The position numbers and the translations under genes are program-made. Of a stretch of 64,000 nucleotides of DNA, positions 18,301 through 34,518 are shown in pieces. The stretch lies in assembly GCF_937910895.1 (NCBI RefSeq), contig NZ_CALEMI010000052.1, forward strand, positions 124,001-188,000. The letters run 5' to 3'. Position 1 is the first letter of the stretch. Each line of letters begins with the position of its first letter. The DNA comes from an uncultured Dokdonia sp. (GTDB lineage: Bacteria; Bacteroidota; Bacteroidia; Flavobacteriales; Flavobacteriaceae). Under the pieces are notes generated by a model, which did no database searches, was not told the origin of the DNA, and saw only the letters and a program-made list of their open reading frames with translations.

Positions 18301-18665
18301 ACCGTACGAAGACTTTCGTGTCGATCTACTAATTGATTAAAAGCCAACGATAGTTTATCAAAATCTAATAGTCCATTAAATTCAAACGCCTCAAATATAT
18401 TATATGCAGAGTTCCCTGAATCAAACTGGCTCAATGTCCATAATTGCTGCTGAGAAGACGTAAGTGCATAAAAATCTTTCTTCACTGCTTTAGGTATAGA
18501 CTCTGAAGAAGAAAGTAATGCGATTAACTCACTTTTATGAGCTTTGATTTCATCAATGATTTCTGGGGTCAGAGCATCCTTTGGAGCATTAATTTTGAGA
18601 CTCCCGTTTACAACCTTGAGTCCGATTTTTGACGACTGTAGTGTATGTATTAAATGTTCTATCAC
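15360..18665 (-). CDS. Non-ribosomal peptide synthetase NRPS2, single module
   Basis: 1101 aa, dock-C-A-PCP. The TubC-like docking domain is at 1-53, HHIIGDG near 196, the adenylation core TSGSTG near 661, and the carrier LGGNS serine at about 1043. The eye-aligned code is DLYNNALTYK, close to codes I recall for alanine, so this module likely adds Ala (possibly Gly). The 30-residue tail (GVSKKLQFIVFQNQL..., ending MDEITI) is nearly the same as the NRPS1 tail and may be the docking peptide read by NRPS3. Start is GTG at 18665. The gap to NRPS1 is 145 bp and to NRPS3 180 bp, so one operon is likely. Confidence 0.97.
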   Translation of the reverse strand: MIEHLIHTLQSSKIGLKVVNGSLKINAPKDALTPEIIDEIKAHKSELIALLSSSESIPKAVKKDFYALTSSQQQLWTLSQFDSGNSAYNIFEAFEFNGLLDFDKLSLAFNQLVDRHESLRTVFKEDQDGTLSQYIVSTEAYTGSLQFVDLSDTANDELRAYSDTIQKHAFDLEKGPLFIGEIVKISDKKHILMLNMHHIIGDGWSMGVLSREFMTIYNGLSLGQEVILPELPIQYKDYSEWQNSETRQAVLEKSEAFWLDTFSGDLPILELPSNKVRPKLKTYNGSSLDYEFSKEFTALLNGYAQKNGMTLFMVLMASINGLLSRYTNTRDIILGTPVAGRDHSDLENQVGLYLNTLAIRTSFEKEATFEALLAIQKETLLSAYSHQEYPFGSLVRELDIKRDLSRSVLFDALVVFQNQQGLLVSEGLNLNGVEITPYQNMEKSFSKYDLSFIFSEKKGKLSLHIEYNTDIYELDFIERLSVHFDNFLAKAVQTPQDKVSTINYLTPEEESQLLVHFNATTVDYPDTTMVDLFVNQAKKTPDATALMFGDISFTYKELDELSNQLSHYLLSTYNLELENLVGVKLDRTEWLLISLLAVLKAGCAYVPLDTKYPAQRIAYIEQDSQCRVTIDKEVIASFITAEPISKELPSVTFGSENLAYIIYTSGSTGKPKGVMITHKNASSMLHWSASEFSDTHFDVLYAVTSHCFDLSVYEFFYPLSIGKPIRLLDSGLSISDYIDTDSHILINTVPSVLKMLIDKEVNFSNVVGINLAGEPFPASITSYFKDSGIALRNLYGPSEDTTYSSIYRVEKEYDRSVPIGNGIHNTQFYILSDALALQPVGVIGEICISGDGISRGYLHQPELTKEKFVVNRFRESGTLYKTGDLGKWLSNGSIEYVGRKDSQVKIRGHRIELGEIEHVLELQEGIDQCVVMTSKVQDELVIVTYLVSEHPVDKQELRLSLGQELPEYMLPSYYVFLDEMPLTPNGKIDKKALPPISSDDVIKREYVAPTNEIEETLAQLWEEVLGLEKIGVTDNFFELGGNSLKATVLINKINKAYNTRFSIQDLYETQEIMGVSKKLQFIVFQNQLELETADNMDEITI
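16038..16051. repeat. Dispersed palindrome inside NRPS2
   Basis: Exact GCTTTCGCGAAAGC at the same place of the adenylation domain (RFRES before YKTGD). Confidence 0.9.
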
Positions 18666-18810: not shown

Positions 18811-21800
18811 TTAAATAGTGAGTTCATCTACACTATCTACTTTTAATTGATTTTGAAAAACAATGAATTGTAATTTCTTAGAAACCCCTATAATCTCTTG
18901 AGTCTCATATAAATCTTGAATAGAAAATCTAGTATCATACGCCTTATTTATTCTATTTACTAAAACAGTGGCTTTTAAACTATTTCCTCCTAATTCAAAA
19001 AAGTTATCGGTAATACCAATACCTTCTATTCCTAATACTTCTTCCCAGATGATAACCAGTTCTTTTTCTAGGTCATTACTAGGTACTACATAGGTGCGTT
19101 GTATCACATCTTCTGGACTTACAAGCGGTAATCCTTTCTTATCTATCTTACCATTTGGAGTTAAAGGCATTTCATCTAGAAATACATAATAACTCGGTAA
19201 CATATACTCTGGTAATTCCTTACTTAAAGATATACGTAATTGTTGTTTATCTATAGTTTCAGAACTAACCAAGTAGCTAACTATTGTATTATTCCCTTGG
19301 ATCGTACTAACTACAACGACCGCCTGGTCAATAGATGTTTGTCGCTGTAAAACATATTCAACTTCACCTAATTCTATACGGTGTCCTCTAATTTTTACTT
19401 GACTGTCTTTTCTACCTAGATATACGATAGTACCGTCGGCTAATCTCTTTCCTAAATCTCCAGTCTTATATAATTTTCCGCTTTCGCGAAAGCGGTTTTC
19501 TACAAAACTTTCTGCTGTTAATGAGTGTTTGTTTAGATATCCACTTGACAATCCGTCGCCAGAAATACATATTTCTCCAATCACTCCTATAGGTTGTAAT
19601 GACAATGTTTCTGATACAATATAAAATTGAGTATTGTCTATCGCTTTACCAATAGGGACAGCACCAGTGTAAAATCCTGCAACTCGATAATAACTACTAT
19701 AAGTAGTGTCTTCAGATGGACCATATAAATTTCTTACAGCAATTCCTGAACCTTCAAAATAATTAGCAGTAGCTATTGGAAAAGCTTCGCCTGCAAGATT
19801 AATTCCTACGACATTTTTAAAAGATACCTCCTTCTCTATAAGTGTTTGTATGACTGAAGGAACTGTATTAATCAATACATTTTTATCAGTATCTATATAG
19901 TCTCCAATAGACAGCCCATTGGGTAATAAACGAATTTGCTTTCCAACACTCAGTGGATAGAAAAATTCATAGACTGATAAATCAAAACAATGAGAAGTCA
20001 CTGCATATAATATATCAAAATTCGTATCACTAAATTCTCTCATAGACCAATGCAACATAGAAGATGCATTCTTATGAGTAATCATCACTCCCTTTGGCTT
20101 ACCAGTAGATCCTGAAGTATAAATAATATATGCCAAATGATCTGAGTTAAAAGGCACTTTTGGAAGTGTGTTTGAAATCGTATCAGCCTTTTTAAAAGTA
20201 GTTAAAACTGTCGCATCTATCGTTACTTTACAATTACTATCATTCTCGATGTAAGAAATACGCTGTGCAGGATACTTTGTATCTAAAGGAACATAAGCAC
20301 ATCCCGCTTTTAAAACAGCTAGTAATGAAATAAGTAACCATTCATTACGATCTAACTTCACGCCTACAAGGTCTTCTACCCCTAAATCATAGTGTACTAA
20401 AAGATAATGAGCCAACTCATTTGAAACCTTATCAATTTCTCTATATGTATATGTTTGATCTTCAAAAACAAGTGCCGTAGCGTTTGGAGTCTTTGAAGCT
20501 TGTGCTACAAACAGATCTACCATCGTAGTATCTGGATACGCAACCGTTGTATCATTAAAATCGTATAATAGTTGAGATTCCTCAGATGATCCTAAATAAT
20601 TAAGACTCGCTACACGTTGATTTGGTGTTTGAATTCCTTCTAACAAAAAGTTATTAAAATGATAACATAAACGTTCTACAAAATCTACTTCATAAATATC
20701 TGTGTTGTATTCTATTTGTAGTGATAGTTGTCCGCTTTTCTCTGAAAAGATAAAACTTAAATCAAATTGACTCACTTTTCTTTTATAGCCTGTATAAGGT
20801 CGGATGCTTAATTCCTCTACATCTAAATGCGTAGCATCAAATATATCTTGTTGATTTTGGAATACGACCAATACATCAAATAACGCAGATCTACTCGTAT
20901 CTCTTCCTAATCCTAATTTTTCTACCAACTGGTCTAAAGGATATCCCTGATGTGAATAAGCATTTAATAAGTTCTCTTTTTGTATCGTTAACAACTCTTC
21001 AAAAGTCACTTCTTTTTCAAAAGTGGTTCTAATAGCTAGTGTATTTAAGTACAGGCCTACTTGATTTTCTAAATCACTATGCTCTCTCCCTGCCATTGGA
21101 GTACCTACAATAATATCGGTAGTGTTGGTATATCTAGATAGAATCCCATTAACACCTGCCATCAAGACCATAAATAGACTAGCGCTTTGTTTTTCTGAAA
21201 ATACTCTCAAGTTGGCACTTACATCTTTTGAGAAATCATACGTTAATGAATCTCCTACATACGTCTTTATTTTAGGTCTCATTTTATTGGTAGGAAGGTC
21301 CAACACGGGTAGATCTCCGCTAAAGGTATTTAACCAATACTCCTCTGATATTTTAAATGAAGAAGCTTGAGCATCACTTCGCATCCAAGAAGCATAATCT
21401 TTATACTGTACCGTAAGTTCTGGTAAGTATATCTCTTTTGCTCGCACTAAATGGTCGTAAATAGTAATAAACTCTTTACTTAATATTTCCATAGACCAGC
21501 CATCACTAATAATATGATGCATATTAAAAAGTAATACATGCCTATCATCTGATAATCTTACAAGAGTGACACGCACTAAAGGTGCTTCTCCTAAATCAAA
21601 TTGATATTTATAACTATTGGCAACTCTTTTTTCTAAAGCCGCTTCCTGATCTTTAACCTCACTATAATCATAACAATCAATATCAAATTCAATAGCCAGA
21701 GCATCTACGATATATTGACGTACTTCTCCTTCCTCATTTCGTTTAAAAAATGTTCTTAATACTTCATGTCTAGCAATAACTGTATAAAATGCTTCTTTTA

Positions 21801-24800
21801 AGTGCTCTACATCGAGAGTTCCTTCCAACTCAAATGAACCTGGAATGTTGTAAGCTTTATTGCCTCCTTCAAACTGACTTAAAATCCATAAACGATGTTG
21901 TGAAGATGTCAATACATAATCTTTCTGAACAGGCGCTTTTGGAATGGTACCATACGTGCGATTTCCTAATTTAGGAATCATAGACGCTATTGTAGGATTA
22001 AGAAACATATCTTTTATGGTGATATCATATCCTAATCTACTTTTTATCTTATTAACAACTAGTGTCATTTTAAGGCTATGTCCTCCAAGCTCAAAGAAAT
22101 TATCTGTAAGTCCTATATTCTCTATACCTAATACTTCTTGCCATATAGTCACTAGCTGTCTTTCTATTGTAGTTGTAGGTGCTACATACTCATTTTTAAT
22201 TCTATCTTTAGACTGTATAGATGGCAATGCCTTCTTGTCTGTTTTACCATTAGAAGTTAAAGGGATTGCTGCTAACTCTACATAGTAATTAGGCAACATA
22301 TAATCGGGTAATTGATCACTTAGTTTGATACGTAATTCTTGTTTGTCTATTGGGTTATTACCCACAATATAAGCGACAATAGCCTGATCACCTTCTACTT
22401 CTTTAACAACGACAACGCATTGATTAATGATTTCTTGAGAAGATAGAGCGTTCTCTATTTCTCCTAATTCTATACGATATCCTCTTACTTTAACCTGATC
22501 ATCCTTACGACCTAAAAATTCTATTGTCCCGTCTGACAACCATCTGGCAACATCTCCTGTTTTATAAAGCCTTGCTCCCTCTATAAAAGGGTGTGTAACA
22601 AATTTTTCTTTGGTTAATTCTTCTTGGTGTAAATAGCCTCTAGATAGCCCATCCCCAGAGATACATAGCTCTCCATAAACCCCTATAGGTTGTAATGATA
22701 AATCATCAGATAGGATATACACCTCCGTATTTGTTACAGGTGTTCCTATTGATATAATATCATTCTCTAAATGACTTTCATCAACTTTACACATAGTAGA
22801 ACTAATCGTAGTCTCAGTAGGACCGTATTCATTATAAAAATCTGCAACAGCATATAGCTTTTGAGCTAGATTCTTTGTACAAGCTTCTCCACCTGCAATA
22901 ATTCTACGTAAATCTTTACAACCGCTAAGGTCATCCAAATGTTCTAAATAACTTGGCGTTGCATGAATGTGTGTGATAGCATATTCTTGTAATACTTTCG
23001 TAAAATCTACCGGATCTAGTATACGATCTTTAGACACCGCAACTAGCGTGGCTCCGTGTAAAAATGCTAAAAATATTTGCTCCATAGAAGCATCAAAAGA
23101 TGGGTTTGAAAATTGTAATACACGTTCTGAACTACTAAAATCAAAAGCTTTCCCTTGACCCACAATATAATTAACTAAACTCTTATGCTCAATCATCACG
23201 CCTTTAGGATTTCCTGTTGATCCTGATGTATAAATAATATATGCAAGGTTAGTGGTCTCTAAAGAAACCATTGGCAATTGTGTATTATAACGATCTTTTT
23301 TTGCAACAAAATCTGATATGAATCTAGCGTCTATTGTAACCTTGCTATTACTATCATTTTCTATATATTCAATACGCTGTTGTGGATAACTAGGATCTAC
23401 TGGAACATACGCTCCTCCTGTTTTTAAAATCGCTAATAGCGAAATATATAACCACTCACTACGCTCTAATTTTACAGTGACTAAATCTTCTATTTCAATA
23501 TCAAAATTAGTCAATAAGTAATTAGCCAATTGACTTGAAACAGCATCTAGTTCTCTATACGTAAATTTATCACCATCAAACTCTAACGCAATAGCATCTG
23601 GTGTATTTTCAACTTGTGCTACAAACAGATCAACAACTGTTTTTTCTGATGGGTACACAGCTCTTGTCGCATTAAAATCCTCTAACAGCATTTCTTTTTC
23701 TGCTTCTGCAATATAATTTATGGCTGTTAAAGATTGTGTTGGATTTATGATAAGACTTTCTAAGATATTTAGATACGCCATCAAAATACGCTCCATGGTC
23801 GTATGCATAAATATATCTGCATTATAATCCCACTCTATAGAAATTCTTCTATCCTGTTGATTTCCTACTGTATAATCTATCTGCTCATAAATGGTATTTA
23901 TGACAACACTTATGTCAAATTGCGAAGCTTTATTATGCCCTTTTATAATTTCAATCTCGGCATCAAGCAAAGACATACTTTGTATAGGGACGTTTATAAA
24001 GCTAAACATATATTGAAAAAGTGGATGCACATGTAATCCTCTTTCTGGATTGATTCTCTCTACTACTTTTCCAAAAGGAGTATCTTCTTGCGCATACGCA
24101 TCTAGACATGTTTCTTTCACTTCCTGAAGTACATCTATAAGGGTACTATCAGGAGCAAATGTTGTTCTCAAAGCAATGGTATTTACAATCATTCCAAGTA
24201 CTTCCTGAAACTCTTTATAGCCTCTATTGGCTACTGCGGTACCAACACAGATATCTGTCTGATTACTAAATTTGTGCAATGCAATTTTAAACGCTGTAAT
24301 CATTGTGATAAACAATGAAACATTTTGTTTTTCTGAAAATTTTCTCAACTTTTCAGAAAATTCTAATGAAAATACATGAAAGATAGACCCTCCATTTTTA
24401 CTAGCTGTTTCTGGTCTATTATAGTCTAGGGGTAATAATTTCTCATTAGAGAAACCTTCAAATTTTTCTTCCCAGAAATCTAATTTCTCTCTGAGTACGC
24501 TTTCGCGAAAGCTTTCTTTTTCCCAGTAGGCGTAGTCTTTAAAAGTTACCTTAGGTTTTTTAACCTCAAATGCTGGGTTTCTTTTTAATTCATTATAAAT
24601 ATCTACAAAATCTCTAAATAAAATACCTTGTGTCCACCCATCTAAGATCAAGTGGTGTTCACAGAATAAAAGCACATTTTCTTCTGCTGAAAACTTAAGT
24701 AATTCAACTCTAAAAAGAGGTCCTTCTTCTATTTCAAAAGAGACACTTTCTAAGGCATCAAGGCGATCAGTAATCATTTTTTCCTTTGCATCTTCTTTTA

Positions 24801-27800
24801 TTTCTCTACAGTTTGTAACAGGAATCTGATACGCATAAGGAGATAATATTTTCTGATAAGGCACGCCTTCATTATTAACGAAAACGGTTCTTAAAATCTC
24901 GTGCTTTTCTATAAGTTTAGAAAACGTTTTTTCTAATATTTGTACATCAACACATCCTGTTAATCGAATAGCTCTTGATACATGATACGAAGTGTCTTCT
25001 GTATCCAACTGATTCAGAAACCACAACCTATCTTGAGCATACGATAATGGATAAAATTCCTGAGTAGGCGCTATAATATTTTGAATCTCTTTTTTATCAA
25101 GCGTAGGAACAAGTTCGCCAAGCTCTTTGATTGTAGGAGATTTATAGAAATCTTTTAATGATAACTCAACTCCTTTCTGATCTCTTAAATTACTAATAAA
25201 CTGATTTGCGAGTAATGAATGTCCTCCTAATTCAAAGAAACTTACCGTAACATCTACCTCATCTAACTTTAATAACTCTTGCCAGATAGCTGCAATCTCT
25301 TTTTCTTCTTTTGTAGAAGGAAGTTCAACAACTTGATTTGTATTTACAGTGACTGCTTCTGGTAAACTTTTAATATCTATTTTACCATTTGGTAATAAAG
25401 GAATTGCGTCTATGATTACAAAATGGGTTGGAATCATAAACTCTGGCAGATATTCTTTTAGATCTACGACCAATGCATTTATGTTTACAAAAGATCCATT
25501 TGCTACGAGATAGGCAATTAAAATAGGCATTTCTTTTACCTCTTTAATACACACATAACTATCTATAACATATACATTTGCTTGTTGTATCGCTTGTTCA
25601 ATCTCACCTATTTCTATTCGATATCCTTTATAACTTAACTGATTATCTTTTCTTCCGTAGAAAATGAGGTTATTATCAATATCCCATTTTCCAAGATCAC
25701 CTGTCTTATAAATGCGTTTTCCATCTATATTTAAAAATGCCTGATCTGTAAGTTCTTTCTTATTCAAATAAGAAACAGCAAGTCCGATACCTGAAAGTCC
25801 GATCTCCCCGATCGCTCCTTTAGGTAATATTTTTGTGCCATCCAGAAGATACACCCCTCTATTTGTAATAGGTTTCCCTATAGGCAGTGAAACATCTGTT
25901 TTTGTTACTTTATGATAGGTTGCACAAACAGTACTCTCTGTAGGTCCGTATGTATTATATACATGATACATATCTATAAGTTGATCTACCTGATGAGGTT
26001 TTAGTACGTCACCTCCACTAATAAGTGTTTTAAAGTGTAGATCATATTTTGTATGATTATCATTAAGATATTGTAATACAAAAGGATTTGTACTTAATAG
26101 AGTAACCTTATAATACTCACATTCTTGAAGTAAGTTATTAAAGTCTTTCGTATCATTTGCGATAACTAGATTTCCACCTACCGATAGGATAGGGAAAATT
26201 TCTTCAATAGAAGTATCAAAAGAAGTAGACGCTTGTTGTAAAACAACATCTTGCTGGCTAAGAGTAAAATAATCTCTAAATGTCAATATATAGTCATATA
26301 AAGATGTGTGATTAATCACAACCCCTTTAGGTTTTCCTGTTGAACCAGAAGTATATATAATATAGGCGTTATCGCTAGGCTCTAGCTGGACAGGAGTATA
26401 ATTCTCTAAAGATGTATACGCATCTAAAATGGTATCTATATTACATTCTATTGCTTCTGCTATTGTTTGAGAAGCTGAATCTGTTAAGATAAAGTCTAAT
26501 TGAGCATCTTCTATAAGATATTGCTTTCTTTCTTGTGGATATGTATCATCAATTGGCACATACATAGCACCTGTTTTTAATGCCGCAAGAATCCCAACAA
26601 TACTTTTTTCTGATCTTGAAAGCATCACACCTACTTTATCTCCTCTTTTAACACCCTTAACTTGTAAGTATGAAGCTACCGTATTTGCATACTTTTCGAG
26701 TTTCTCATAAGTTAGCGAAGTAGATTGATAAGTGACTGCTGTTTTAGAAGGATACTTAGATAGTGCAAGATTCCAAAGATCTAAAAAGGTTTCTTCAGGT
26801 CGTTGTATATGGACTCCATTTGAAATGGCATATACTTCTTTTAATTGCGCTTTACTAGCGATTTGAATTTCAGCGATCGTCGTGTCCTTAATATCTTTTA
26901 AATGTGTTAGCACATTTTTAAAAGAAGTAATGATTTGATCTGCATCAGATCTAGAAACGTATTTTTCATTAATATCAAATCTAAAACTAATCTTTCTATT
27001 CATATCTTCAAAAACATGTATAGAGATAGGATCTTCTTCACTATCGTTAGATAAAGGGTAAATCTCAGTTAAGTTTCCTGAAAACTCAGCTTCATATTGC
27101 ATACGCTCGTATGATAGGCGTACATCATATAGTTTTGATGCTTCTTGAGATAGGTTTCTTAGTATATCTGCTTGCTGAAAACGCTGATGTCTATAGCACA
27201 TAAAAAGTGTACTCTTTATTTCTTTTATAAAATCAATAACAGATGTTGTTGATTCTAATGAAAGTTTTAAAGGGAGTAAACTTAAAAAAGGACCGAACGT
27301 ACGTTTTTCGGCTGCATTTTTTCTATTCAAAATAGGCATTCCAAGATTTACTTCATCTGTATTATAGTATTTTGATAGTATTATTGAAAAACATCCTAAT
27401 AACAAATGAAAGATGCCTAGGCGTTCGGTTTTTGCAAATTCCCAAAAAGCTTCATTTTCATTTTCAGATAAAGCAAGTTCAATATTACAGTGACTTGTAG
27501 TCTTATTGGTACCTGTATAAATTAAGGATGGTAATTCTGCATAGCGGTCTAACCAAAAATCTCTATCATTAGAAAACTCATCAGAATTTCTATATGCCTC
27601 CTCAGAAGTTATAAAAGCCTCATACGAATAAGTATTCTTTTCTATACAAGCATCATCATAAGCTAAGTCAGTATTGAGTTGTTCATATATTCTTTTCACT
27701 TTAGTATATAATAACTGAAAAGAAAAACCATCAGATATGATATGGTGCAGTTTTGAATACCATATATAAGATGTAGGTGTTATTTTTATAAGCCACATCT

Positions 27801-28137
27801 TATATAATTGTTCGTCATTTTTAAGATCAAAAGGAATTACAAAATCTTCTTCTATAGCTTTTATAGCTTTTGATTTATCAGATTCTTCTAGATAGGTTAA
27901 AGCTAGATTAGGATCTATATCCTGAATGGTATATACTGGGAATCCACTCTTTTCTTCAAAACAAAAAGAAAAGATATCGTTCTCCTTTGCTAAAATATCA
28001 ATGGCAAGTCGAAAGCGATCTATATTAATACTCCCTTTTATAAATGCGTAACCCCCAATATTATATTTTGGAGACTCGCTTTCAAGCATCTGATCTAGCC
28101 AGATATACTTCTGTACGTTTGTGACATTATTTTTCAT
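18811..28137 (-). CDS. Non-ribosomal peptide synthetase NRPS1, starter C domain plus three modules
   Basis: 3108 aa, C-A-PCP-C-A-PCP-C-A-PCP, without an N-terminal docking domain, so this is the first protein of the line. HHxxxDG motifs are at 131-137 (HHIISDG), near 1161 (HHLILDG) and near 2206 (HHIISDG). Adenylation cores lie near 591, 1631 and 2668. Carrier serines are at about 974, 2021 (LGGHS) and 3053 (LGGNS). Codes by eye: DTESIGTVCK (close to the bacitracin Lys code), DAEHIGEISK (unassigned; Glu at 239 often goes with basic substrates) and DLYNNALTYK (Ala-like). An N-terminal C domain with an intact catalytic motif suggests lipo- or acyl-initiation, which is inference. The start ATG overlaps the antiterminator stop by one base (TGATG), so translation is probably coupled. 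The tail ends VDELTI. Confidence 0.97.
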   Translation of the reverse strand: MKNNVTNVQKYIWLDQMLESESPKYNIGGYAFIKGSINIDRFRLAIDILAKENDIFSFCFEEKSGFPVYTIQDIDPNLALTYLEESDKSKAIKAIEEDFVIPFDLKNDEQLYKMWLIKITPTSYIWYSKLHHIISDGFSFQLLYTKVKRIYEQLNTDLAYDDACIEKNTYSYEAFITSEEAYRNSDEFSNDRDFWLDRYAELPSLIYTGTNKTTSHCNIELALSENENEAFWEFAKTERLGIFHLLLGCFSIILSKYYNTDEVNLGMPILNRKNAAEKRTFGPFLSLLPLKLSLESTTSVIDFIKEIKSTLFMCYRHQRFQQADILRNLSQEASKLYDVRLSYERMQYEAEFSGNLTEIYPLSNDSEEDPISIHVFEDMNRKISFRFDINEKYVSRSDADQIITSFKNVLTHLKDIKDTTIAEIQIASKAQLKEVYAISNGVHIQRPEETFLDLWNLALSKYPSKTAVTYQSTSLTYEKLEKYANTVASYLQVKGVKRGDKVGVMLSRSEKSIVGILAALKTGAMYVPIDDTYPQERKQYLIEDAQLDFILTDSASQTIAEAIECNIDTILDAYTSLENYTPVQLEPSDNAYIIYTSGSTGKPKGVVINHTSLYDYILTFRDYFTLSQQDVVLQQASTSFDTSIEEIFPILSVGGNLVIANDTKDFNNLLQECEYYKVTLLSTNPFVLQYLNDNHTKYDLHFKTLISGGDVLKPHQVDQLIDMYHVYNTYGPTESTVCATYHKVTKTDVSLPIGKPITNRGVYLLDGTKILPKGAIGEIGLSGIGLAVSYLNKKELTDQAFLNIDGKRIYKTGDLGKWDIDNNLIFYGRKDNQLSYKGYRIEIGEIEQAIQQANVYVIDSYVCIKEVKEMPILIAYLVANGSFVNINALVVDLKEYLPEFMIPTHFVIIDAIPLLPNGKIDIKSLPEAVTVNTNQVVELPSTKEEKEIAAIWQELLKLDEVDVTVSFFELGGHSLLANQFISNLRDQKGVELSLKDFYKSPTIKELGELVPTLDKKEIQNIIAPTQEFYPLSYAQDRLWFLNQLDTEDTSYHVSRAIRLTGCVDVQILEKTFSKLIEKHEILRTVFVNNEGVPYQKILSPYAYQIPVTNCREIKEDAKEKMITDRLDALESVSFEIEEGPLFRVELLKFSAEENVLLFCEHHLILDGWTQGILFRDFVDIYNELKRNPAFEVKKPKVTFKDYAYWEKESFRESVLREKLDFWEEKFEGFSNEKLLPLDYNRPETASKNGGSIFHVFSLEFSEKLRKFSEKQNVSLFITMITAFKIALHKFSNQTDICVGTAVANRGYKEFQEVLGMIVNTIALRTTFAPDSTLIDVLQEVKETCLDAYAQEDTPFGKVVERINPERGLHVHPLFQYMFSFINVPIQSMSLLDAEIEIIKGHNKASQFDISVVINTIYEQIDYTVGNQQDRRISIEWDYNADIFMHTTMERILMAYLNILESLIINPTQSLTAINYIAEAEKEMLLEDFNATRAVYPSEKTVVDLFVAQVENTPDAIALEFDGDKFTYRELDAVSSQLANYLLTNFDIEIEDLVTVKLERSEWLYISLLAILKTGGAYVPVDPSYPQQRIEYIENDSNSKVTIDARFISDFVAKKDRYNTQLPMVSLETTNLAYIIYTSGSTGNPKGVMIEHKSLVNYIVGQGKAFDFSSSERVLQFSNPSFDASMEQIFLAFLHGATLVAVSKDRILDPVDFTKVLQEYAITHIHATPSYLEHLDDLSGCKDLRRIIAGGEACTKNLAQKLYAVADFYNEYGPTETTISSTMCKVDESHLENDIISIGTPVTNTEVYILSDDLSLQPIGVYGELCISGDGLSRGYLHQEELTKEKFVTHPFIEGARLYKTGDVARWLSDGTIEFLGRKDDQVKVRGYRIELGEIENALSSQEIINQCVVVVKEVEGDQAIVAYIVGNNPIDKQELRIKLSDQLPDYMLPNYYVELAAIPLTSNGKTDKKALPSIQSKDRIKNEYVAPTTTIERQLVTIWQEVLGIENIGLTDNFFELGGHSLKMTLVVNKIKSRLGYDITIKDMFLNPTIASMIPKLGNRTYGTIPKAPVQKDYVLTSSQHRLWILSQFEGGNKAYNIPGSFELEGTLDVEHLKEAFYTVIARHEVLRTFFKRNEEGEVRQYIVDALAIEFDIDCYDYSEVKDQEAALEKRVANSYKYQFDLGEAPLVRVTLVRLSDDRHVLLFNMHHIISDGWSMEILSKEFITIYDHLVRAKEIYLPELTVQYKDYASWMRSDAQASSFKISEEYWLNTFSGDLPVLDLPTNKMRPKIKTYVGDSLTYDFSKDVSANLRVFSEKQSASLFMVLMAGVNGILSRYTNTTDIIVGTPMAGREHSDLENQVGLYLNTLAIRTTFEKEVTFEELLTIQKENLLNAYSHQGYPLDQLVEKLGLGRDTSRSALFDVLVVFQNQQDIFDATHLDVEELSIRPYTGYKRKVSQFDLSFIFSEKSGQLSLQIEYNTDIYEVDFVERLCYHFNNFLLEGIQTPNQRVASLNYLGSSEESQLLYDFNDTTVAYPDTTMVDLFVAQASKTPNATALVFEDQTYTYREIDKVSNELAHYLLVHYDLGVEDLVGVKLDRNEWLLISLLAVLKAGCAYVPLDTKYPAQRISYIENDSNCKVTIDATVLTTFKKADTISNTLPKVPFNSDHLAYIIYTSGSTGKPKGVMITHKNASSMLHWSMREFSDTNFDILYAVTSHCFDLSVYEFFYPLSVGKQIRLLPNGLSIGDYIDTDKNVLINTVPSVIQTLIEKEVSFKNVVGINLAGEAFPIATANYFEGSGIAVRNLYGPSEDTTYSSYYRVAGFYTGAVPIGKAIDNTQFYIVSETLSLQPIGVIGEICISGDGLSSGYLNKHSLTAESFVENRFRESGKLYKTGDLGKRLADGTIVYLGRKDSQVKIRGHRIELGEVEYVLQRQTSIDQAVVVVSTIQGNNTIVSYLVSSETIDKQQLRISLSKELPEYMLPSYYVFLDEMPLTPNGKIDKKGLPLVSPEDVIQRTYVVPSNDLEKELVIIWEEVLGIEGIGITDNFFELGGNSLKATVLVNRINKAYDTRFSIQDLYETQEIIGVSKKLQFIVFQNQLKVDSVDELTI
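19480..19493. repeat. Dispersed palindrome inside NRPS1 module 3
   Basis: Exact GCTTTCGCGAAAGC, again RFRES before YKTGD. Confidence 0.9.
24499..24512. repeat. Dispersed palindrome inside NRPS1 condensation domain 2
   Basis: Exact GCTTTCGCGAAAGC, read as SFRES, at a place unrelated to the adenylation-domain copies. Confidence 0.9.
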
Positions 28138-28664
28138 CAGACTGCTTTTGATAATTTAGACAAATAGTGAGAAGGTAATGTTGCCGTAATATTTTGATTG
28201 ATAGAATCCATACGAACAACAATCTTATTGTTATTATTTATATTTAGAATTTCACATTCTAATCCAGTAAAGGCGCCGCATTGAATCATTGCTATTTCAC
28301 CTTTTTCTAATAATTCTGTATCATTCTTTATATCTTCTATACCGTCAGAACCTAATAGAAATTTAATTTTTTGAATTTCGCTGTCTCTTATAGTGGCATA
28401 TACAGAGCCACATTTTATAAAAGTACAGGCACCATTGATTGAAGATGCTTTGTAAAAATCTTTTGCATTTTCAATCATAACAAATAGATATGATGGAAAA
28501 AGTGGTAACTCTATTACTTTCTTACGATCGCTCCAAGTACGTACTGTCTTTACTAAAGGTAAAAACGGTTGTAATCCAACCTCTCTTAGCAAATTATCTA
28601 CTTTGTGCTCATGGCGTGACTTAACATAAAGAACATGCCAACCTGTTTTTAGAAGTTTTCCCAT
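28137..28664 (-). CDS. NusG-paralog transcription antiterminator (UpxY/LoaP-like)
   Basis: 175 aa. Residues 8-110 look like a NusG N-terminal domain (GWHVLYVKSRHEHKV, then LPLFPSYLFV, a hallmark of this family). Residues about 120-165 resemble a KOW-type domain (GEIAMIQCGAFTGLECEIL). Specialised NusG paralogs of the UpxY (Bacteroides capsule operons) and LoaP (Bacillus polyketide operons) types ride on RNA polymerase and allow read-through of long operons. Here the gene is the first cistron and overlaps NRPS1 by one base, so its natural target is the NRPS operon of more than 28 kb itself. Housekeeping nusG sits among ribosomal genes, which are absent here. The leader upstream is about 320 nt. 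Confidence 0.9.
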   Translation of the reverse strand: MGKLLKTGWHVLYVKSRHEHKVDNLLREVGLQPFLPLVKTVRTWSDRKKVIELPLFPSYLFVMIENAKDFYKASSINGACTFIKCGSVYATIRDSEIQKIKFLLGSDGIEDIKNDTELLEKGEIAMIQCGAFTGLECEILNINNNNKIVVRMDSINQNITATLPSHYLSKLSKAV

Positions 28665-29025
28665 AACTATTGTTTTTAATTATACAATCACTATGTATTA
28701 GCAATTATATGTTTGACGTTTAAATAATAGAGTAGATAAAGAATCTTAAAAAAAAACATAGCTTCGCTTCCTTGACTCACATCACGTTCATTCTTAAAAG
28801 GAAATTATGTTGTAAAAGAAACTGATCTTTATTGTATCCTATAGTTTGATACAGAAACTCTCTTTATACATATATTGAGAGTTGATTTCTGATTACATAT
28901 TAATAATCATTCAATCCAGGTTCAAAATTTCAACTGTTTATAATAAGTGTGCAACAATTTGCTTTACTTATTATTATGGTACAAACATATACCAAAACGA
29001 AGCCTCAAAAAAGTGAACACTGTCC
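28665..29025 (-). promoter_or_regulatory. Long leader and -7 box of the NusG-NRPS operon
   Basis: No gene is seen here. On the minus strand TCGTTTTG (29000-28993) and TATGTTTG (28989-28982) both resemble the Bacteroidota -7 box TAnnTTTG. The first sits exactly 25 bp from the operator, as in the peptide-gene promoter; the second fits the consensus better. Either predicts a 5' leader of about 310-320 nt before the antiterminator gene, room for an RNA element such as LoaP-type proteins need. A run of nine T follows GAAGCTATG in the minus-strand leader (28749-28757), without a convincing stem. Confidence 0.5.
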
Positions 29026-29065
29026 GTTTTCAGGAAAGTCCACCCGTATTTCACGGAAAACAGAC
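29026..29065 (-). promoter_or_regulatory. Bipartite operator upstream of NusG-NRPS operon
   Basis: On the minus strand GTCTGTTTTC (29065-29056) is followed after exactly 21 bp by CCTGAAAAC (29034-29026). The same two boxes with the same 21-bp spacing occur upstream of the 64-aa peptide gene at 31962-32001. A further single box differing by one base (GTAAACAGAC) is at 29236-29245. The AraC-type regulator encoded next door is the obvious candidate ligand, by inference. Confidence 0.65.
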
Positions 29066-29640
29066 GCTCTAATTAAATTTTAAATATTTTAAAATCAACT
29101 ACTTAAGTGAAAATAAATAAATATCACTATAAAACACTCCTTCTAAAGCTATGTAGATAGAAAAGACCATAAATCCAGTTATATTTACCTTGATTTCATT
29201 CTAGAAAGCAATAATGATACAGAAGAATTTTAATCGTAAACAGACGTTTGTTGCAAAATAAAGCAGATAATAGCAATATTCAGAAATAAAATACTTGTAT
29301 ATTATTAAGAAGTTAACGTAACTTGTAAACTTAATATGGGTTTAATGGGTAACAAAATTGAATTATACTAACCTTATTATATAGAGATGCTTTATAAATT
29401 TAATTAGAAAACAAAATGATCTATAGTATATCTTTGGAAAAGTGTACTATCTAATTAGTATTTTAAGGCTTACAAAACAATAAAGTGTATACTCTACGCA
29501 ATTATGCAAATAACGATAATTCAAAAAAATGACTAAAAAAGTACTATCATATAATTAGAGACAATCTTTATCCTTCCCCCTCTTGTAAATTCTAGGGTTA
29601 AAAACTTAAGAACTCGCATTTAAAAAATATCTTTCTAGAT
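29066..29640. other. AT-rich intergenic region before the TPR/AraC regulator
   Basis: No coding region is supported. Apart from the single operator-like half site GTAAACAGAC at 29236-29245, I see no clear promoter, RNA gene or repeat. Confidence 0.5.
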
Positions 29641-31413
29641 ATGCATAAGATGATAAAAGACAAATTCATTATAACCTTCTTTCTAACTATATTAGGTTAT
29701 AATCTCACATACGCTCAAGTATCTGATAAAAGAGAAATACAGAAACTCACAGAAAAGAGTTACAAAGATCTATCTGAGACTTTTTTAACACTCGAATCTA
29801 AAAATGATACCCTAACTATTAAATTGTATGCTGAAGCTTTTTTACTAAAAGCCAAAAAAGAAAATAATATCATAAAGAAAGCTGATGCATATTATATGCT
29901 TGCTGATATGTTTACTAGGACTTCTAAGAACGAACAAGCTCTAGTGTATGCAGATTCTATTATCACAATCACAAAAGATAAAAATGATTATAATTATCCT
30001 GCAAAAGCACATTTATTAAAAGCCAAAATTCTAGGGTCTCAGAGTAATTTTCAGGACTCCATGAATGAATTAGCAGAAGCAAATAATTATGCTAATACTA
30101 ATGAAAATGAAGATCAACAATACCAAATAAAATACTTCATTGCTATTTTAAAAAATAATTTAGGACAAAATGAAGAAAGTTTAAAACTTTTCAAGAGTGT
30201 TGTCGAATATTATGAAAAAAAATATCTGGAAAACAAAGAGCATGAAAATGAATATATAAGATCATTATACGCGTATGGAAGTGTTTTAAATACTTTAGAA
30301 AAGTATGACTCAGTACAAAAAATAAATGATAAAGCTATTCATTTAAGTTTAAAAACTAAAGATAGTAGTTATTATAACAGATTACTTCTTTCTTCTGCAG
30401 CTGTACATTACAATAAAAAAGAATATAAATCCAGTCTTGATAGTATTAGAAAATTACAAAAACTTAGCTCAAGTAAAAAAAGTGATGATGCAACTAATAA
30501 TACTATTAATTTTTTCTTAGGAAGAACATTTTATAAACAGAAAAAAGTAGACTCTTCATTACATTATCTCCTAAAAGTTGACTCGTTTGCATTTAAAAAT
30601 AATTTCTTTTTCCCTTCAATAAGAGAAAATTATGAATTATTAATTCAACATTATAAAAAAGAAGAAAACATAGAGAAGCAATTATTCTATATAGACAGGT
30701 TGCTTCTGGTTGATAGTATTTTGGATAATGATGTAAAATATTTATCTAGCCATATAAATGAGGAATACTCAAAACCTAATCTAATTTTAGAAAAACAACA
30801 GATTATAGAATCGCTAGAAAAAAATAACATTACCAAAATAGTGGTCTTAGTCATTTTATCTGTCTTTGTTCTTTTACTAATGATTATAATCATTAGAAAT
30901 AAGAAAAAACAAAAGATTTATCAAAAGCGTTTTCAGGAATTATTAGAAAATAAAAAATCTAGCGAAACAACGACTACTAAAGAAAAAGAAACTCAATCTA
31001 TTATTGAGAATGAACCCAAAGACATTGGTATTTCAGAAATTATAGTAAATGATATCTTAAAGAATCTAGAAAAATTTGAAGAAAATAATGATTTTCTTCA
31101 AGCTAGTATCTCTGTAGCTAGTTTATCAAAACGATTTAAAACAAATTCAAAATATTTGTCTAAAGTCATTAACGTTCATAAAGATAAAAGTTTTAGTAAT
31201 TATATAAATGAGTTACGTATAAACTATGTGATTGAAGAGCTGAAAGTCAATTCTACATTTAGAAGATATACTATAAGAGCTATCGCAAATGAAATAGGCT
31301 TTAATACTACAGAAGCTTTTTCTAAGTCTTTTTACAAAACAACAGGGATATACCCTTCTTTCTTCATGAAGCAACTAGAAAAGCAGGAGATTTCAAAAAA
31401 ACATAAAATTTAA
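29641..31413 (+). CDS. Membrane-anchored TPR sensor with cytoplasmic AraC-type DNA-binding domain
   Basis: 590 aa. An N-terminal hydrophobic stretch (residues about 8-26, ending TYAQ) looks like a signal peptide or anchor. Residues about 40-370 are helical TPR-like repeats (ADAYYMLADMF, ALVYADSI, KAHLLKAKILG). One strong transmembrane helix lies at about 398-418 (IVVLVILSVFVLLLMIIII), followed by a basic linker. The last 110 residues form two helix-turn-helices of the AraC family (SVASLSKRFKTNSKYLSKVIN and, near the end, IRAIANEIGFNTTEAFSKSFYKTTGIYPSFF). Such one-protein sensors are common in Bacteroidota: the TPRs face the periplasm and the HTH acts at promoters. It lies between the NRPS operon and the peptide gene, and both carry the same operator. 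The inducer is unknown. An alternative start is Met4. Confidence 0.9.
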   Translation: MHKMIKDKFIITFFLTILGYNLTYAQVSDKREIQKLTEKSYKDLSETFLTLESKNDTLTIKLYAEAFLLKAKKENNIIKKADAYYMLADMFTRTSKNEQALVYADSIITITKDKNDYNYPAKAHLLKAKILGSQSNFQDSMNELAEANNYANTNENEDQQYQIKYFIAILKNNLGQNEESLKLFKSVVEYYEKKYLENKEHENEYIRSLYAYGSVLNTLEKYDSVQKINDKAIHLSLKTKDSSYYNRLLLSSAAVHYNKKEYKSSLDSIRKLQKLSSSKKSDDATNNTINFFLGRTFYKQKKVDSSLHYLLKVDSFAFKNNFFFPSIRENYELLIQHYKKEENIEKQLFYIDRLLLVDSILDNDVKYLSSHINEEYSKPNLILEKQQIIESLEKNNITKIVVLVILSVFVLLLMIIIIRNKKKQKIYQKRFQELLENKKSSETTTTKEKETQSIIENEPKDIGISEIIVNDILKNLEKFEENNDFLQASISVASLSKRFKTNSKYLSKVINVHKDKSFSNYINELRINYVIEELKVNSTFRRYTIRAIANEIGFNTTEAFSKSFYKTTGIYPSFFMKQLEKQEISKKHKI

Positions 31414-31961
31414 TTTCAATAGATAATTCCTTTGATTTTGATAATAAATATTATTCTTTTTTAATACATCTTTCAAGTTATTAAGAGTAAATAATCCTTG
31501 AAGTAAATTCACAACAAAGCATTCATCAAAACATTTTTTTTCAATTTCTGAAATTAATTTAGAGATATTAAGCCTTGAATAATTATAAAAAAGAGTAATC
31601 CAACTAGCTTGTTTTAAGCTGATGCTTTATGATTCTTTAATGTAAGGTTTTATAATAAAAGTAGTTATAAATAATAATGAATAGCCAAGTATTAACTTTA
31701 AATAGATTTATTAGATCAATAGATCAATAATCTTATATTTATGAGGTTGTATGTTTAGAGAATTCAACTAACTTCTTAGGAATAAATTAATAAATAACAG
31801 TTTAAAAAGCCTACAAAAATTAAATCTATATCCTAAATATAGAATCCTCACACACTCTTTTCTTTAAAAACAGCATGAATTTCTCATTTTAGCTTTTAAA
31901 AATATTTTAAATGCTAGTTTAAAAATAAATTTATAAATACTTTATTATCAATTACTTAAAT
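31414..31961. other. AT-rich intergenic region, no gene supported
   Basis: About 550 bp between the regulator and the peptide-gene operator. A minus-strand frame of about 75 codons (around 31640-31410) is open but has no start codon or recognisable family. I see no RNA gene or terminator with a clear stem. Confidence 0.5.
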
Positions 31962-31985
31962 GTCTGTTTTCCTGAAAACAGACAT
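31960..31985. promoter_or_regulatory. Perfect 12-bp inverted repeat in peptide-gene operator
   Basis: ATGTCTGTTTTC (31960-31971), a 2-nt spacer, then its exact reverse complement (31974-31985). It overlaps the left box of the bipartite operator shared with the NRPS promoter. In the NRPS copy only one arm is fully kept. Confidence 0.75.
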
Positions 31986-32034
31986 CTTTATTCCTGAAAA
32001 CGTGCAGGCTCCTCTCAAAAGACACCTATTTTTC
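31962..32034 (+). promoter_or_regulatory. Operator and promoter of the 64-aa peptide gene
   Basis: GTCTGTTTTC (31962-31971), 21 bp, CCTGAAAAC (31993-32001), 25 bp, then TATTTTTC (32027-32034), a near match to the TAnnTTTG -7 box. CCTGAAAAC also occurs at 31971-31979, giving direct repeats 22 bp (two helical turns) apart, a spacing usual for AraC-type regulators. The expected transcript start is near 32040, 45 nt before the peptide ATG. Confidence 0.62.
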
Positions 32035-32084
32035 GAAGCATGACTAGTAGTTTAGCAGTGTCATTAATCGTAAAAATTATAACC

Positions 32085-32279
32085 ATGAAAACAATTAGTA
32101 AAAAAAACACATTAAGTCTTGAGAAATTTCAAATTGCTAAGCTGAATAACCTACATAATATTATAGGAGGGATAGCTAACCATAATAATGCACAGGGAAC
32201 TCAGGAAGAAGACACTTCAGATACTACAACTATTTGGACAACAACTATGACACAAATTGAACCTCCAATAAGTGGATAA
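32085..32279 (+). CDS. Double-glycine-leader peptide precursor (putative RiPP or signal peptide)
   Basis: 64 aa from the ATG at 32085; an in-frame ATG at 32040 coincides with the predicted transcript start and gives a less typical N-terminus. Residues 1-29 match the Bacteroidota GG-leader pattern (LSLEKFQIAKLNNLHNIIGG: regular hydrophobics, then Gly28-Gly29). The presumed core is residues 30-64, rich in Thr/Ser and acidic residues (TSDTTTIWTTTMTQIEPPISG) and without cysteine, so no lanthionine can form. GG leaders are normally cut by a peptidase-containing ABC exporter during export. No such exporter, radical-SAM enzyme, lanthipeptide cyclase or ATP-grasp enzyme is encoded in the window. It may be an exported peptide or signal, or be modified by unlinked enzymes. 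It shares its operator with the NRPS operon and precedes a prolyl oligopeptidase. Confidence 0.7.
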   Translation: MKTISKKNTLSLEKFQIAKLNNLHNIIGGIANHNNAQGTQEEDTSDTTTIWTTTMTQIEPPISG

Positions 32280-32315
32280 TTGTTACAATAGAAAGTTTTA
32301 AACTGTCATTAATTT

Positions 32316-32344
32316 AAGGGAGAACATATCATATATTCTCCCTT
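32316..32344 (+). terminator. Hairpin between peptide gene and prolyl oligopeptidase
   Basis: AAGGGAGAA (32316-32324) pairs perfectly with TTCTCCCTT (32336-32344), followed by TT and then an A-rich stretch. This looks like a weak terminator or attenuator that would give much more peptide mRNA than peptidase mRNA. Confidence 0.7.
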
Positions 32345-32358
32345 TTAAAAAACATTTC

Positions 32359-34518
32359 ATGAAGAATATCCACCTACTTATAATGATTCTAAATATTGTA
32401 GTGTCGATATCTATCAATGCTCAAAATAGCATTGTATTAACTCCTGAAATTGTAATTGATCAATATCACAATCAAAAAATTGAAGACCCATACAGATACG
32501 TAGAAGATTTATCGAATCCCAAAGTAAAAAATTGGATAGATACTCAGAGTAAAACAGCTCAATCTTTCTTAAATAAAATTAAAAAAAGACAGTTTCTCAT
32601 TGACACGCAAATAAAGCTCGATCAACAAAGTGAGTTTATTATTTCCAAACTGAAGGTCACAAACAATGAGTACTACTTTTACTTAAAAAGACTTCCTACC
32701 GAAAATGTAGCAAAACTATATTATAGAACTTCTTTTGAAGGTGAAGAAATTTTATTATACAATCCTATTTCATTTAATACATCAGAAAACAAGGACTTTG
32801 TCATTAATTATTTCCAACCAGATTGGGCAAATTCAAAAATTGCCATTAGTCTTACAGAAAAGGGAAAAGAAATTTCTCAAATAATCATTCTAGATATACA
32901 AACAAATCAAGTTTTTTCAGAAGTTTTAGAAAATACCTGGCCATCAGATGTGGGAGGGCTTCAATGGCTACCTGATAATTCAGGTTTTATTTATTTACAT
33001 TTCCCAAATACAACTAACAACTCTCTAGACATTCTTTTAAATGCAACCTCTGTTTTACATAAAGTCGGAGAGCACCAAAAAAAGGATACAAAGGTATTCT
33101 CAAAAGAGTTTTGTGAAAATCTGGATATTAAAGAAGAAGATTTTCCTACTACAAAGATAGAAAGTCAATCTAATAAATATTTAATAGGTACAGCTTCTGG
33201 GGCTAGCGCATACGATGATACCTACTATTTGCCTATACAGGAAATAGGTACTCCTAATTGGAAACCATTATTTTCAAAACAAGAATTAATCAAAGAGTAT
33301 ACAATCATAGGAGATTCTATCATATTCAAAACATCGTATAATGCTCCCAATTTTAAAATAGGAATCACATCTATAAAAAAACCAAATTTCAATACTGCTA
33401 GAATTCTAGTGCCAGAAAGTAAAGACCACGTAATTACAGATTTTGCCGTAACATCAGAAGGATTGTATTATGTAACTAGCAAAAACAGTGTTCAAGCAAA
33501 ACTTTTCAAACACACGAATTCACTAGATCAGGAAATTGTACTTCCGAAAATGTATGGAAGTATCGAACTTTCATCTCATGGATATTTATATCCAAAGCTT
33601 TGGATTACTGGAAAGGGATGGACTACCGACAGTGAACGTTACGAGTACATAAATAATGAGCTTACCTCAAAAAATTTACATAACACAAAGATTTCAAATA
33701 TATTAGAAAACATCGTTACTGAAGAAATAGAAGTTACAGCACATGATGGCAAAAAAATACCCTTATCTATCTTCTATCATAAAGACATGGTCAAAAATGG
33801 GAAAAACCAAGTGCTCATGGATGGCTATGGAGCCTATGGAGTCTCTATGAAACCCACCCTCAAAACCCATAGAATTTTATGGCTTCTAGAAGGAGGTGTC
33901 TACGCAATTGCCCATGTACGTGGTGGTGGAGAGAAAGGAAATAAATGGTATAAAGGAGGTTACAAGATATCGAAACCTAATACTTGGAAGGATTTTATCT
34001 CCTGCGCAGAACATCTCATCGCTTATCAATATACATCCCCAAAAAACCTAGCCATTTTTAGTGGTAGCGCAGGCGGAATATTAATAGGTCGTTCCATCAC
34101 AGAACGTCCTGACTTATTTGCGGCGGCTATTGTCCAATTTGGATCTTTAAATATGCTACGATCAGAAATGCATACTAACGGCGCCAATAATACAAAAGAA
34201 TTTGGCTCCATAAAAAACCCCGAAGAGTTCAAAGCACTATTGGAAATGGATGCATATTACCATATTCAAAAAAATAAGAAATACCCAGCAGTTTTACTCA
34301 CCGCTGGATTAAATGATCCTAGAGTACCAGCTTGGTTCTCTGCAAAGTTCATAGCAAAAATACAAGCTTATGATACGTCTAATAATCCAAAATTATTATT
34401 GGTAGATTCAGATTCTGGACATGGAATAGACGATACCAAAACAAAGATTTTTAATGAATACGCAAATATCATTGCTTTTGCTTTTAAACAAACAGGACAT
34501 CCTGAATATCAGTTTTAA
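32359..34518 (+). CDS. Prolyl oligopeptidase family serine peptidase (S9A), exported
   Basis: 719 aa. The signal peptide is at about 1-21 (LLIMILNIVVSISINAQ). An N-terminal region typical of S9A follows (DQYHNQKIEDPYRYVEDL), then a beta-propeller (about 70-440) and an alpha/beta-hydrolase domain. The catalytic Ser lies in GSAGG (near residue 573; GGSNGG is usual in this family), the Asp in LNDPRV and the His in SGHG, so the triad is complete. These enzymes cut short peptides after proline in the periplasm or outside. The gene starts 80 bp after the GG-leader peptide gene, whose core contains Pro-Pro near its end. The pair could therefore be substrate and processing or degrading enzyme, though this is inference. 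A housekeeping peptide-scavenging role is the alternative. Confidence 0.93.
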   Translation: MKNIHLLIMILNIVVSISINAQNSIVLTPEIVIDQYHNQKIEDPYRYVEDLSNPKVKNWIDTQSKTAQSFLNKIKKRQFLIDTQIKLDQQSEFIISKLKVTNNEYYFYLKRLPTENVAKLYYRTSFEGEEILLYNPISFNTSENKDFVINYFQPDWANSKIAISLTEKGKEISQIIILDIQTNQVFSEVLENTWPSDVGGLQWLPDNSGFIYLHFPNTTNNSLDILLNATSVLHKVGEHQKKDTKVFSKEFCENLDIKEEDFPTTKIESQSNKYLIGTASGASAYDDTYYLPIQEIGTPNWKPLFSKQELIKEYTIIGDSIIFKTSYNAPNFKIGITSIKKPNFNTARILVPESKDHVITDFAVTSEGLYYVTSKNSVQAKLFKHTNSLDQEIVLPKMYGSIELSSHGYLYPKLWITGKGWTTDSERYEYINNELTSKNLHNTKISNILENIVTEEIEVTAHDGKKIPLSIFYHKDMVKNGKNQVLMDGYGAYGVSMKPTLKTHRILWLLEGGVYAIAHVRGGGEKGNKWYKGGYKISKPNTWKDFISCAEHLIAYQYTSPKNLAIFSGSAGGILIGRSITERPDLFAAAIVQFGSLNMLRSEMHTNGANNTKEFGSIKNPEEFKALLEMDAYYHIQKNKKYPAVLLTAGLNDPRVPAWFSAKFIAKIQAYDTSNNPKLLLVDSDSGHGIDDTKTKIFNEYANIIAFAFKQTGHPEYQF

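Follow-up and report, generated by a model that had tools for sequence, protein, structure and literature searches.

A tandem operator joins a GG-leader peptide gene and a non-ribosomal peptide synthetase operon around a TPR-AraC regulator gene in Dokdonia: a candidate peptide-response circuit

The locus described here lies in a 64,000-nucleotide stretch of DNA from an uncultured Dokdonia sp. (the window), which is part of contig 52 of a 4.8 Mb genome (G000). From left to right it consists of non-ribosomal peptide synthetase (NRPS) genes on the minus strand, led by a gene for a UpxY-family NusG paralogue, and of plus-strand genes for a regulator, a double-glycine (GG)-leader peptide, and an S9A-family protease. 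The regulator gene (29641..31413) encodes a signal peptide, a superhelix of tetratricopeptide repeats (TPR), one transmembrane segment and an AraC-type helix-turn-helix (HTH) domain, and the nearest relatives of the protein, besides that of the congener G011, are found in Aquimarina (Flavobacteriaceae). Downstream are the gene for the 64-residue peptide (32085..32279, ATG at 32085), with the leader MKTISKKNTLSLEKFQIAKLNNLHNIIGG, and that for the prolyl-oligopeptidase-family (S9A) protease (32359..34518), for which a signal peptide is likely. On the opposite strand, the UpxY gene (28137..28664; NF033644, 124 bits against a cut-off of 100) opens the NRPS operon. The NRPS genes encode proteins of 3108 residues (18811..28137; three condensation, adenylation and carrier domains), 1101 residues (15360..18665; a TubC_N docking domain and one module) and 4208 residues (2553..15179; a TubC_N docking domain and four modules), with a further NRPS-like minus-strand reading frame (1..2286), read from the sequence without library comparison, extending past the edge of the window. 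A preliminary description of this DNA had placed the UpxY/NusG and NRPS genes, the regulator, the 64-residue peptide and the S9 peptidase in the same way, and all of these placements are borne out.

The two sides of the locus share an operator. The two-box motif proposed in the preliminary description, GTCTGTTTTC-N21-CCTGAAAAC, is real, and occurs with zero mismatches at 29026-29065 (minus strand) and 31962-32001 (plus strand). The only other match in the window at up to three mismatches is the 29026-29065 site seen from the opposite strand, and shuffled windows predict 0.02 matches of the paired motif at this threshold. While these two copies stand, a more fitting description of the unit is a direct repeat of ATTCCTGAAAACAGAC in tandem, with a period of 21-22 bp. 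The NRPS-operon operator, GTCTGTTTTCCGTGAAATACGGGTGGACTTTCCTGAAAACGGAC (29022..29065, minus strand), is composed of TTCC units in tandem at a distance of about 21-22 bp, of which the first has the extended form CCGTGAAATACGG, and the peptide-gene operator, TTTCCTGAAAACAGAC-6-ATTCCTGAAAACGTGC (31968..32005, plus strand), has a 22 bp period and an inverted GTCTGTTTTC ahead of it.

Bacteroidetes promoters have the -7 consensus TAnnTTTG. The -7 boxes assigned earlier, TCGTTTTG and TATTTTTC, are probably misplaced, and likelier boxes are TATGTTTG (28982..28989, minus strand) for the UpxY-NRPS operon and TAGTTTAG (32048..32055, plus strand) for the peptide gene, because TATGTTTG is identical in nine of nine orthologous NRPS leaders (and also present in the asnB promoter described below) and TAGTTTAG lines up with the TATACTTTAG found in several Aquimarina loci. 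By hand count, these boxes sit 45 bp (NRPS) and 55 bp (peptide) from the second repeat CCTGAAAAC, a difference of one helical turn. Activators of the AraC type bind on one face of the DNA, and repeats spaced by 21-22 bp, or two helical turns, just upstream of that region would suit such an activator. In addition, the leader ahead of UpxY contains GTGAGTCAAGGAAGCGAAGCTAT (28758..28780, minus strand), a candidate UpxY (ops-like) recruitment or pausing element that is present in all nine orthologous NRPS leaders (eight exact, one with a single mismatch). Its core, GCGAAGCTAT, also lies upstream of UpxY genes at L148, L146 and L154 and of the second UpxY gene of L053, and may therefore represent an ops-like element of flavobacterial UpxY. 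RNA structure was considered for the NRPS leader, where the z-score was 0.14 and Rfam gave no match across 28000-33000; the element looks like a sequence element rather than a stable fold.

Rather than being widespread, an outcome that the preliminary description had named as counting against its proposal, the operator is nearly private to the locus. In the 4.8 Mb genome, five matches to the paired motif at up to three mismatches comprise the two sites, the opposite-strand reading, a site on contig 119 and a match on C161 with three mismatches, with no matches for a reversed-motif control; three genomic sites remain at up to one mismatch. The 19-base part of the NRPS-type site (TTTTCCGYGAAATRCGGGT) was found at up to one mismatch in two of 99 genomes, G000 and G011. 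Perfect copies of the peptide-type tandem were found in three of the 21 genomes searched, G000, G007 and G011. Four further matches are weaker: a second one in G007 (two mismatches, ahead of the lipoprotein-like gene described below) and three in G036 and G039 (three mismatches). The third genomic site (C119:21170-21209; L038:10173-10210) differs by one mismatch and has the NRPS-type promoter arrangement, facing asnB (PF00733) at near-equal spacing with an identical TATATGTTTGTA. A DUF2911 gene was considered as its target, but orientation, spacing and the TATGTTTG box favour asnB, and the site may have a divergent effect on DUF2911. One guess is that asnB under this site would supply asparagine for the NRPS. 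In G011, the NRPS-type pattern was found once, at the NRPS.

The congener G011 keeps the entire locus, with a regulator that is 74% identical, and both operators are conserved blocks inside otherwise drifted intergenic DNA. In the fragmented assembly of the congener G007, the operator, peptide and protease (77%) are found ahead of the same universal-stress and copper-ATPase genes, on a contig that starts just upstream of the operator, such that the regulator and NRPS positions fall outside it. Among the matches listed for 59 genomes, a second full-length regulator of more than 36% identity came from G011 only. Further loci were collected with a profile of 17 regulators, using one genome per species, and represent the best 80 loci of at least 509 relatives. 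Twelve of them, from Aquimarina (L051-L061 and L064; 47-60% identity), contain the regulator, GG peptide and S9 protease in the same order, and together with the window and G011 form an orthologous set of 14 loci. Among the twelve, L057 belongs to A. muelleri DSM 19832 and L059 to A. latercula DSM 2041, both type strains.

Both strands of these loci were scanned with a leave-group-out matrix, for which only the peptide promoters of the other groups supplied units; in all 14 loci the two best matches are at the peptide promoter and at the promoter of the divergent operon. Scores range from 20.3 to 36.8 at the divergent sites and, in 13 loci, from 25.2 to 46.7 at the peptide sites; third matches reach at most 11.6, and the best-scoring strand varies because the half-site is nearly palindromic. 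Simulated loci score no higher than 19.9 (195 trials), and a reversed matrix no higher than 11.9 (12 real loci). The seed unit of the matrix was picked by eye among the 14 peptide promoters, so the peptide matches are not fully independent, and the divergent matches constitute the independent part, excepting the window's own divergent site, which had been named beforehand in the preliminary description. A second matrix, leaving out L053 and L058 (both of which were part of the leave-group-out test), was used for the simulated and reversed-matrix controls, for the scans of UpxY genes and of G262 described below, for the G007 sites, and for the 66 loci outside the window group. There, 22 matches of at least 20 bits are distributed over 18 loci; all 22 are intergenic, 17 lie within 1.2 kb of a TPR-AraC regulator, and five are at LanB promoters. 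In G007, a tandem operator of 28.4 bits lies about 135 bp upstream of a gene for a 140-residue lipoprotein-like protein (contig 42, L170:3706), which is a possible extra member of the regulon.

Considered apart from the matrix, a tandem repeat ahead of the peptide gene reaches p<=0.05 in 12 of the 14 loci (not in L053 and L054), the best repeat in L061 being different from the operator. Among paralogous modules, only four of 43 reach this level, and upstream of other regulators a 21-22 bp period is present in 12 of 86 cases, as compared to 11 matches over 32 other offsets and to 12 of 277 control open reading frames (ORFs). One paralogous regulator-peptide module of the same genome (L044:1503-5374, contig 11) has a different perfect tandem repeat, two copies of TTTTATAAAAACCGAC, upstream of the regulator, and a subtilase-family (PF00082) protease gene downstream of the peptide.

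The operon divergent from the regulator is UpxY-NRPS in nine of the 14 loci (the window, G011, L051-L054, L057, L059 and L064), a membrane-fusion protein with a C39-peptidase ABC transporter in three (L056, L058 and L061), and LanB-type dehydratase genes in two (L055, and L060, where they lie behind an aspartyl protease). Because a C39 exporter or LanB takes the place of the NRPS beside the regulator-peptide pair in the last five cases, the NRPS is best regarded as one exchangeable output. The NRPS proteins of orthologous loci are 42-64% identical to those of the window in the best of the listed stretches, and in L051 the UpxY gene is followed by a 695-residue carrier and condensation ORF, L052 being similar in look. 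In L051, L052 and L059, genes for LanB and its C-terminal-type partner are directly upstream of the regulator on the same strand (by Pfam for L051 and L059). A 285-residue ORF ahead of the regulator in L054 was also considered as LanB; tblastn matched the locus to LanB, but Pfam gave no match, and L054 was left out of the LanB counts for orthologous loci, yet is one of the 12 LanB loci in the tblastn survey below.

The preliminary description had also held that an NRPS kept by relatives without the peptide and regulator would speak against a common regulon. All nine divergent UpxY-NRPS loci keep the regulator, peptide and protease, a one-sided count because the loci were fetched through the regulator, but a UpxY search of 14 genomes, which left out that of L064, gave 14 matches of which nine are beside the regulator and five elsewhere. 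The unlinked UpxY proteins are 49-57% identical, as close as some of the linked ones, and three of the five adjoin proteins with distant NRPS similarity. No operator site above 13.1 bits was found at these five genes, and on the whole the operator follows the regulator. Taken together, the two conditions set in the preliminary description come out mostly in favour of its proposal.

With its topology read from the sequence, the regulator is predicted to place the TPR superhelix (approximately residues 37-343) in the periplasm and the HTH (residues 495-577; PF12833, 42 bits against a cut-off of 33.6) in the cytoplasm, the transmembrane segment between them (approximately 399-421) fitting a predicted continuous helix of residues 344-443. 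The TPR fold is predicted with high confidence, and the best fold matches include Rap and NprR, with scores near those of unrelated TPR proteins; families outside the listed matches are not thereby excluded. The 80 loci contain 99 full regulators, of which one at a contig end was left out (n=98). A small ORF with the GG-leader pattern is present within 900 bp downstream of 55 of the 98, as compared to one of 350 other long ORFs from the same loci. On a tree of 101 regulators, 64 of them labelled with a peptide (including seven by a looser pattern, the window and G011), 17 label changes are needed versus 30.2 for shuffled labels, and the peptide label is therefore clustered on the tree. In the clade of the window regulator, 14 of 15 have the peptide, the exception being G262. 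Neighbouring genes were surveyed for 53 regulator-peptide loci, about 8 kb on each side or less at contig ends, by single-query tblastn with rows below 35% identity (exporter) or 30% (HlyD) dropped. In 35 of these loci no LanB, LanB C-terminal-type partner, LanC or C39 exporter was seen, although distant forms of LanB, LanC or the exporter can be missed by a single query, and 25 loci have an S9 protease. In Leptobacterium flavescens (L081:4459-16637), seven TPR-AraC regulators stand in tandem, and a GG peptide was detected for none of them. In the genome of the window, a cluster on contig 31 (L041) combines three such regulators with several GG peptides and with a gene resembling LanC (PF05147), and LanB and a C39 transporter are encoded on that contig as well.

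The peptide of the window has an LxLxKx5L leader ending in GG, as do all 14 orthologues, and a cysteine-free core containing TTTIWTTT; against NF038153 it scores 11.4, under the cut-off of 22. This leader motif has been reported for Bacteroidetes class I lanthipeptide precursors (PMC7268733). Over the 14 loci, the core is hypervariable, with a mean identity of 16%, as compared to 56% for the leader, 59% for the protease, 53% for the TPR domain and 79% for the HTH. A tryptophan or phenylalanine is found at a similar core position in 13 of the 14, following threonine in ten and glycine in one and occurring as Thr-Ile-Trp in the window and G011, with Thr-His at this position in L053. Nine of the 14 cores have no cysteine and five have a single one, and most therefore cannot form lanthionine rings. 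No LanC was seen among the genes adjoining the window peptide. The genome has three LanB matches, all on other contigs, and its C39 genes are likewise elsewhere, so that export and dehydration could be provided in trans.

The operators, the two-promoter layout, the linkage of regulator, peptide and protease, and the leader element are evident from these comparisons, and a one-component, membrane-spanning peptide-response circuit that also drives the NRPS is modestly favoured as their explanation. Here, the regulator would span the inner membrane, and its AraC domain would bind the tandem ATTCCTGAAAACAGAC repeats that directly precede the -33 region. Two promoters would be activated in this way, one serving the GG peptide gene and the protease gene that follows it, the other a divergent effector operon, in this case UpxY-NRPS. 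A C39 transporter from another part of the genome would export the precursor and cleave it behind GG, and the S9 protease would trim the product. Docking of the mature peptide in the periplasmic TPR groove would then set up positive feedback, with the NRPS being switched on as well. UpxY, acting through the conserved leader element, would help polymerase along the very long NRPS operon. It is very likely that the TPR-AraC regulator binds the operator and likely that it acts as an activator, and both the export and trimming route and the action of UpxY on the operon are plausible. That the peptide is the ligand is about an even matter: it is favoured by the fact that receptor and peptide come as a pair, by a core that changes fast, and by pairs that apparently stand alone, and it is held near even by the lack of core-sensor covariation and by regulators that have no peptide. 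Of the earlier claim that one AraC-type sensor controls the peptide, peptidase and NRPS product, the operator common to NRPS operon and peptide gene stands and comparative evidence ties that operator to the regulator, but the NRPS is one exchangeable output. Neither the lanthipeptide-type leader nor the large size of the regulator-peptide family figured in the preliminary description.

Several observations weigh against a peptide-response circuit. Distances between peptide cores and between TPR domains are uncorrelated over the 14 loci (Spearman 0.05), and 43 of the 98 regulators lack a peptide by the strict pattern, the looser pattern adding eight, one of them doubtful. The orthologous regulator of G262 (48% identical; L153:8148) has a 41.4-bit operator before a beta-lactamase-family (PF00144) gene, with no peptide, protease or NRPS found in the surrounding 19 kb, and a UpxY search of this genome at E 1e-30 gave no match. 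In addition, TPR superhelices resemble many unrelated binders, the three top fold matches not being pheromone receptors, and the peptide-promoter site of L053 scores 13.2, inside the simulated range. The absent covariation and the G262 arrangement would suit a regulon that is real but in which the peptide is a product, for instance a dehydrated lanthipeptide-like antimicrobial, with the TPR domain sensing something else, for example envelope damage or a competitor molecule, and the ribosomally synthesised and post-translationally modified peptide (RiPP) and NRPS being co-induced. The class I type leader in 14 of 14 loci also fits such a role, as do the five of 14 loci in which the operator precedes genes for LanB or a C39 exporter, whereas the 35 of 53 pairs with none of the surveyed lanthipeptide genes, as far as single-query tblastn can tell, and the preponderance of cores unable to form lanthionine rings, argue against it. 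On balance, a role as product is a serious alternative, with perhaps one chance in three of being correct.

It is improbable that the operator serves another regulator, with the TPR-AraC gene between the sites being a bystander, as the sites stay with the regulator clade despite exchange or absence of the NRPS, peptide and protease. What such an arrangement has in its favour is the presence of similar sites at paralogous loci, and the case of one unlinked UpxY gene (L156:8147-11177, G458 contig 52), which faces away from a differently built AraC-type gene (444 residues, HTH 47% identical) and has a degenerate operator look-alike (4.6 bits) 466 bp upstream, between the two genes, a further point against the circuit. 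More than one family member might thus bind such sites; as the look-alike is beside another AraC-type gene, kindred regulators may act through similar sites, and L156 is possibly a sister circuit. Single half-sites are frequent in the window (at up to two mismatches, 23 were counted versus 15 expected), as might be anticipated of a chance or general promoter feature, but the expectation of 0.02 for the paired sites, the conserved blocks in diverged intergenic DNA, and their presence in 14 of 14 loci make this explanation of negligible probability.

Extended beyond this locus, a peptide-response circuit suggests, more tentatively and with a little less than even confidence, that flavobacteria possess a distinct class of peptide quorum sensing, in which a single genome would hold up to roughly twenty paralogous TPR-AraC receptors that span the membrane. 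Many of these would be paired with a hypervariable RiPP-like pheromone that is exported by C39 transporters and sensed in the periplasm, and would act through 21-22 bp tandem operators on exchangeable outputs (NRPS, exporters, LanB), as an outside-sensing Gram-negative counterpart of RRNPP systems. Should the peptide prove to be the ligand, genera of Flavobacteriaceae such as Aquimarina and Kordia would have genome-wide predicted receptor-pheromone pairs, and short synthetic peptides could wake silent NRPS and RiPP clusters. Even if no ligand is claimed, the operator provides a sequence tag by which NRPS, RiPP and exporter operons can be assigned to a regulator. In one surveyed set, Aquimarina and Kordia are named as the richest in biosynthetic gene clusters per genome (PMC10734526). 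TPR proteins of unclear role are described near graspetide loci (PMC8939145), and TPR-domain genes in two Bacteroidales RiPP clusters (PMC10352776). Among the matches listed in a search that left most subscription papers outside its reach, no paper on TPR-AraC and GG-peptide pairs or on Bacteroidota peptide quorum sensing was found; the conserved operator that links the peptide to the NRPS points to a type of peptide signalling for which these matches hold no description in such bacteria.

Peptide pheromone circuits are well described in Bacillota, and the locus resembles the RRNPP systems found there (Rap-Phr, NprR-NprX and PlcR-PapR) in that a gene for a TPR protein, whose predicted fold is similar to theirs as well as to unrelated TPR proteins, is beside a small propeptide gene, a trait of 14 of 14 orthologous loci and of 55 of the 98 family members. 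In RRNPP systems, the propeptide encoded beside the TPR receptor gives rise to a protease-trimmed peptide (PMC10075063). The regulator differs from the cytoplasmic RRNPP receptors in its predicted signal peptide, transmembrane segment and periplasmic TPR domain, and the system differs in the C-terminal AraC HTH, the GG leader and the Bacteroidota host. The leader motif (14 of 14) and the LanB or C39 exporter near some orthologous loci are shared with class I lanthipeptides of Bacteroidetes, from which the system is set apart by cysteine-free cores in nine of 14 loci and by the absence of LanB, LanC or an exporter beside the window peptide.

Nisin-type lantibiotic clusters are autoinduced through NisRK. 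The locus is similar to such autoinduction in that a RiPP would plausibly induce its own promoter and biosynthetic genes, but a single-protein regulator takes the place of histidine kinase and response regulator, and an NRPS is driven. The accessible text of PMC7268733 makes no mention of regulator pairing for lanthipeptide precursors of this kind, and describes, as a parallel to the protease of the window, LanPB as a prolyl-oligopeptidase-family leader protease, though of class III clusters in Streptococcus. Finally, LoaP, UpxY and other specialised NusG paralogues are associated with an operon leader element (PMC12691694), a combination that is also present in the window locus, with the difference that here UpxY heads an NRPS operon, which in turn lies under the operator ascribed to the TPR-AraC regulator.

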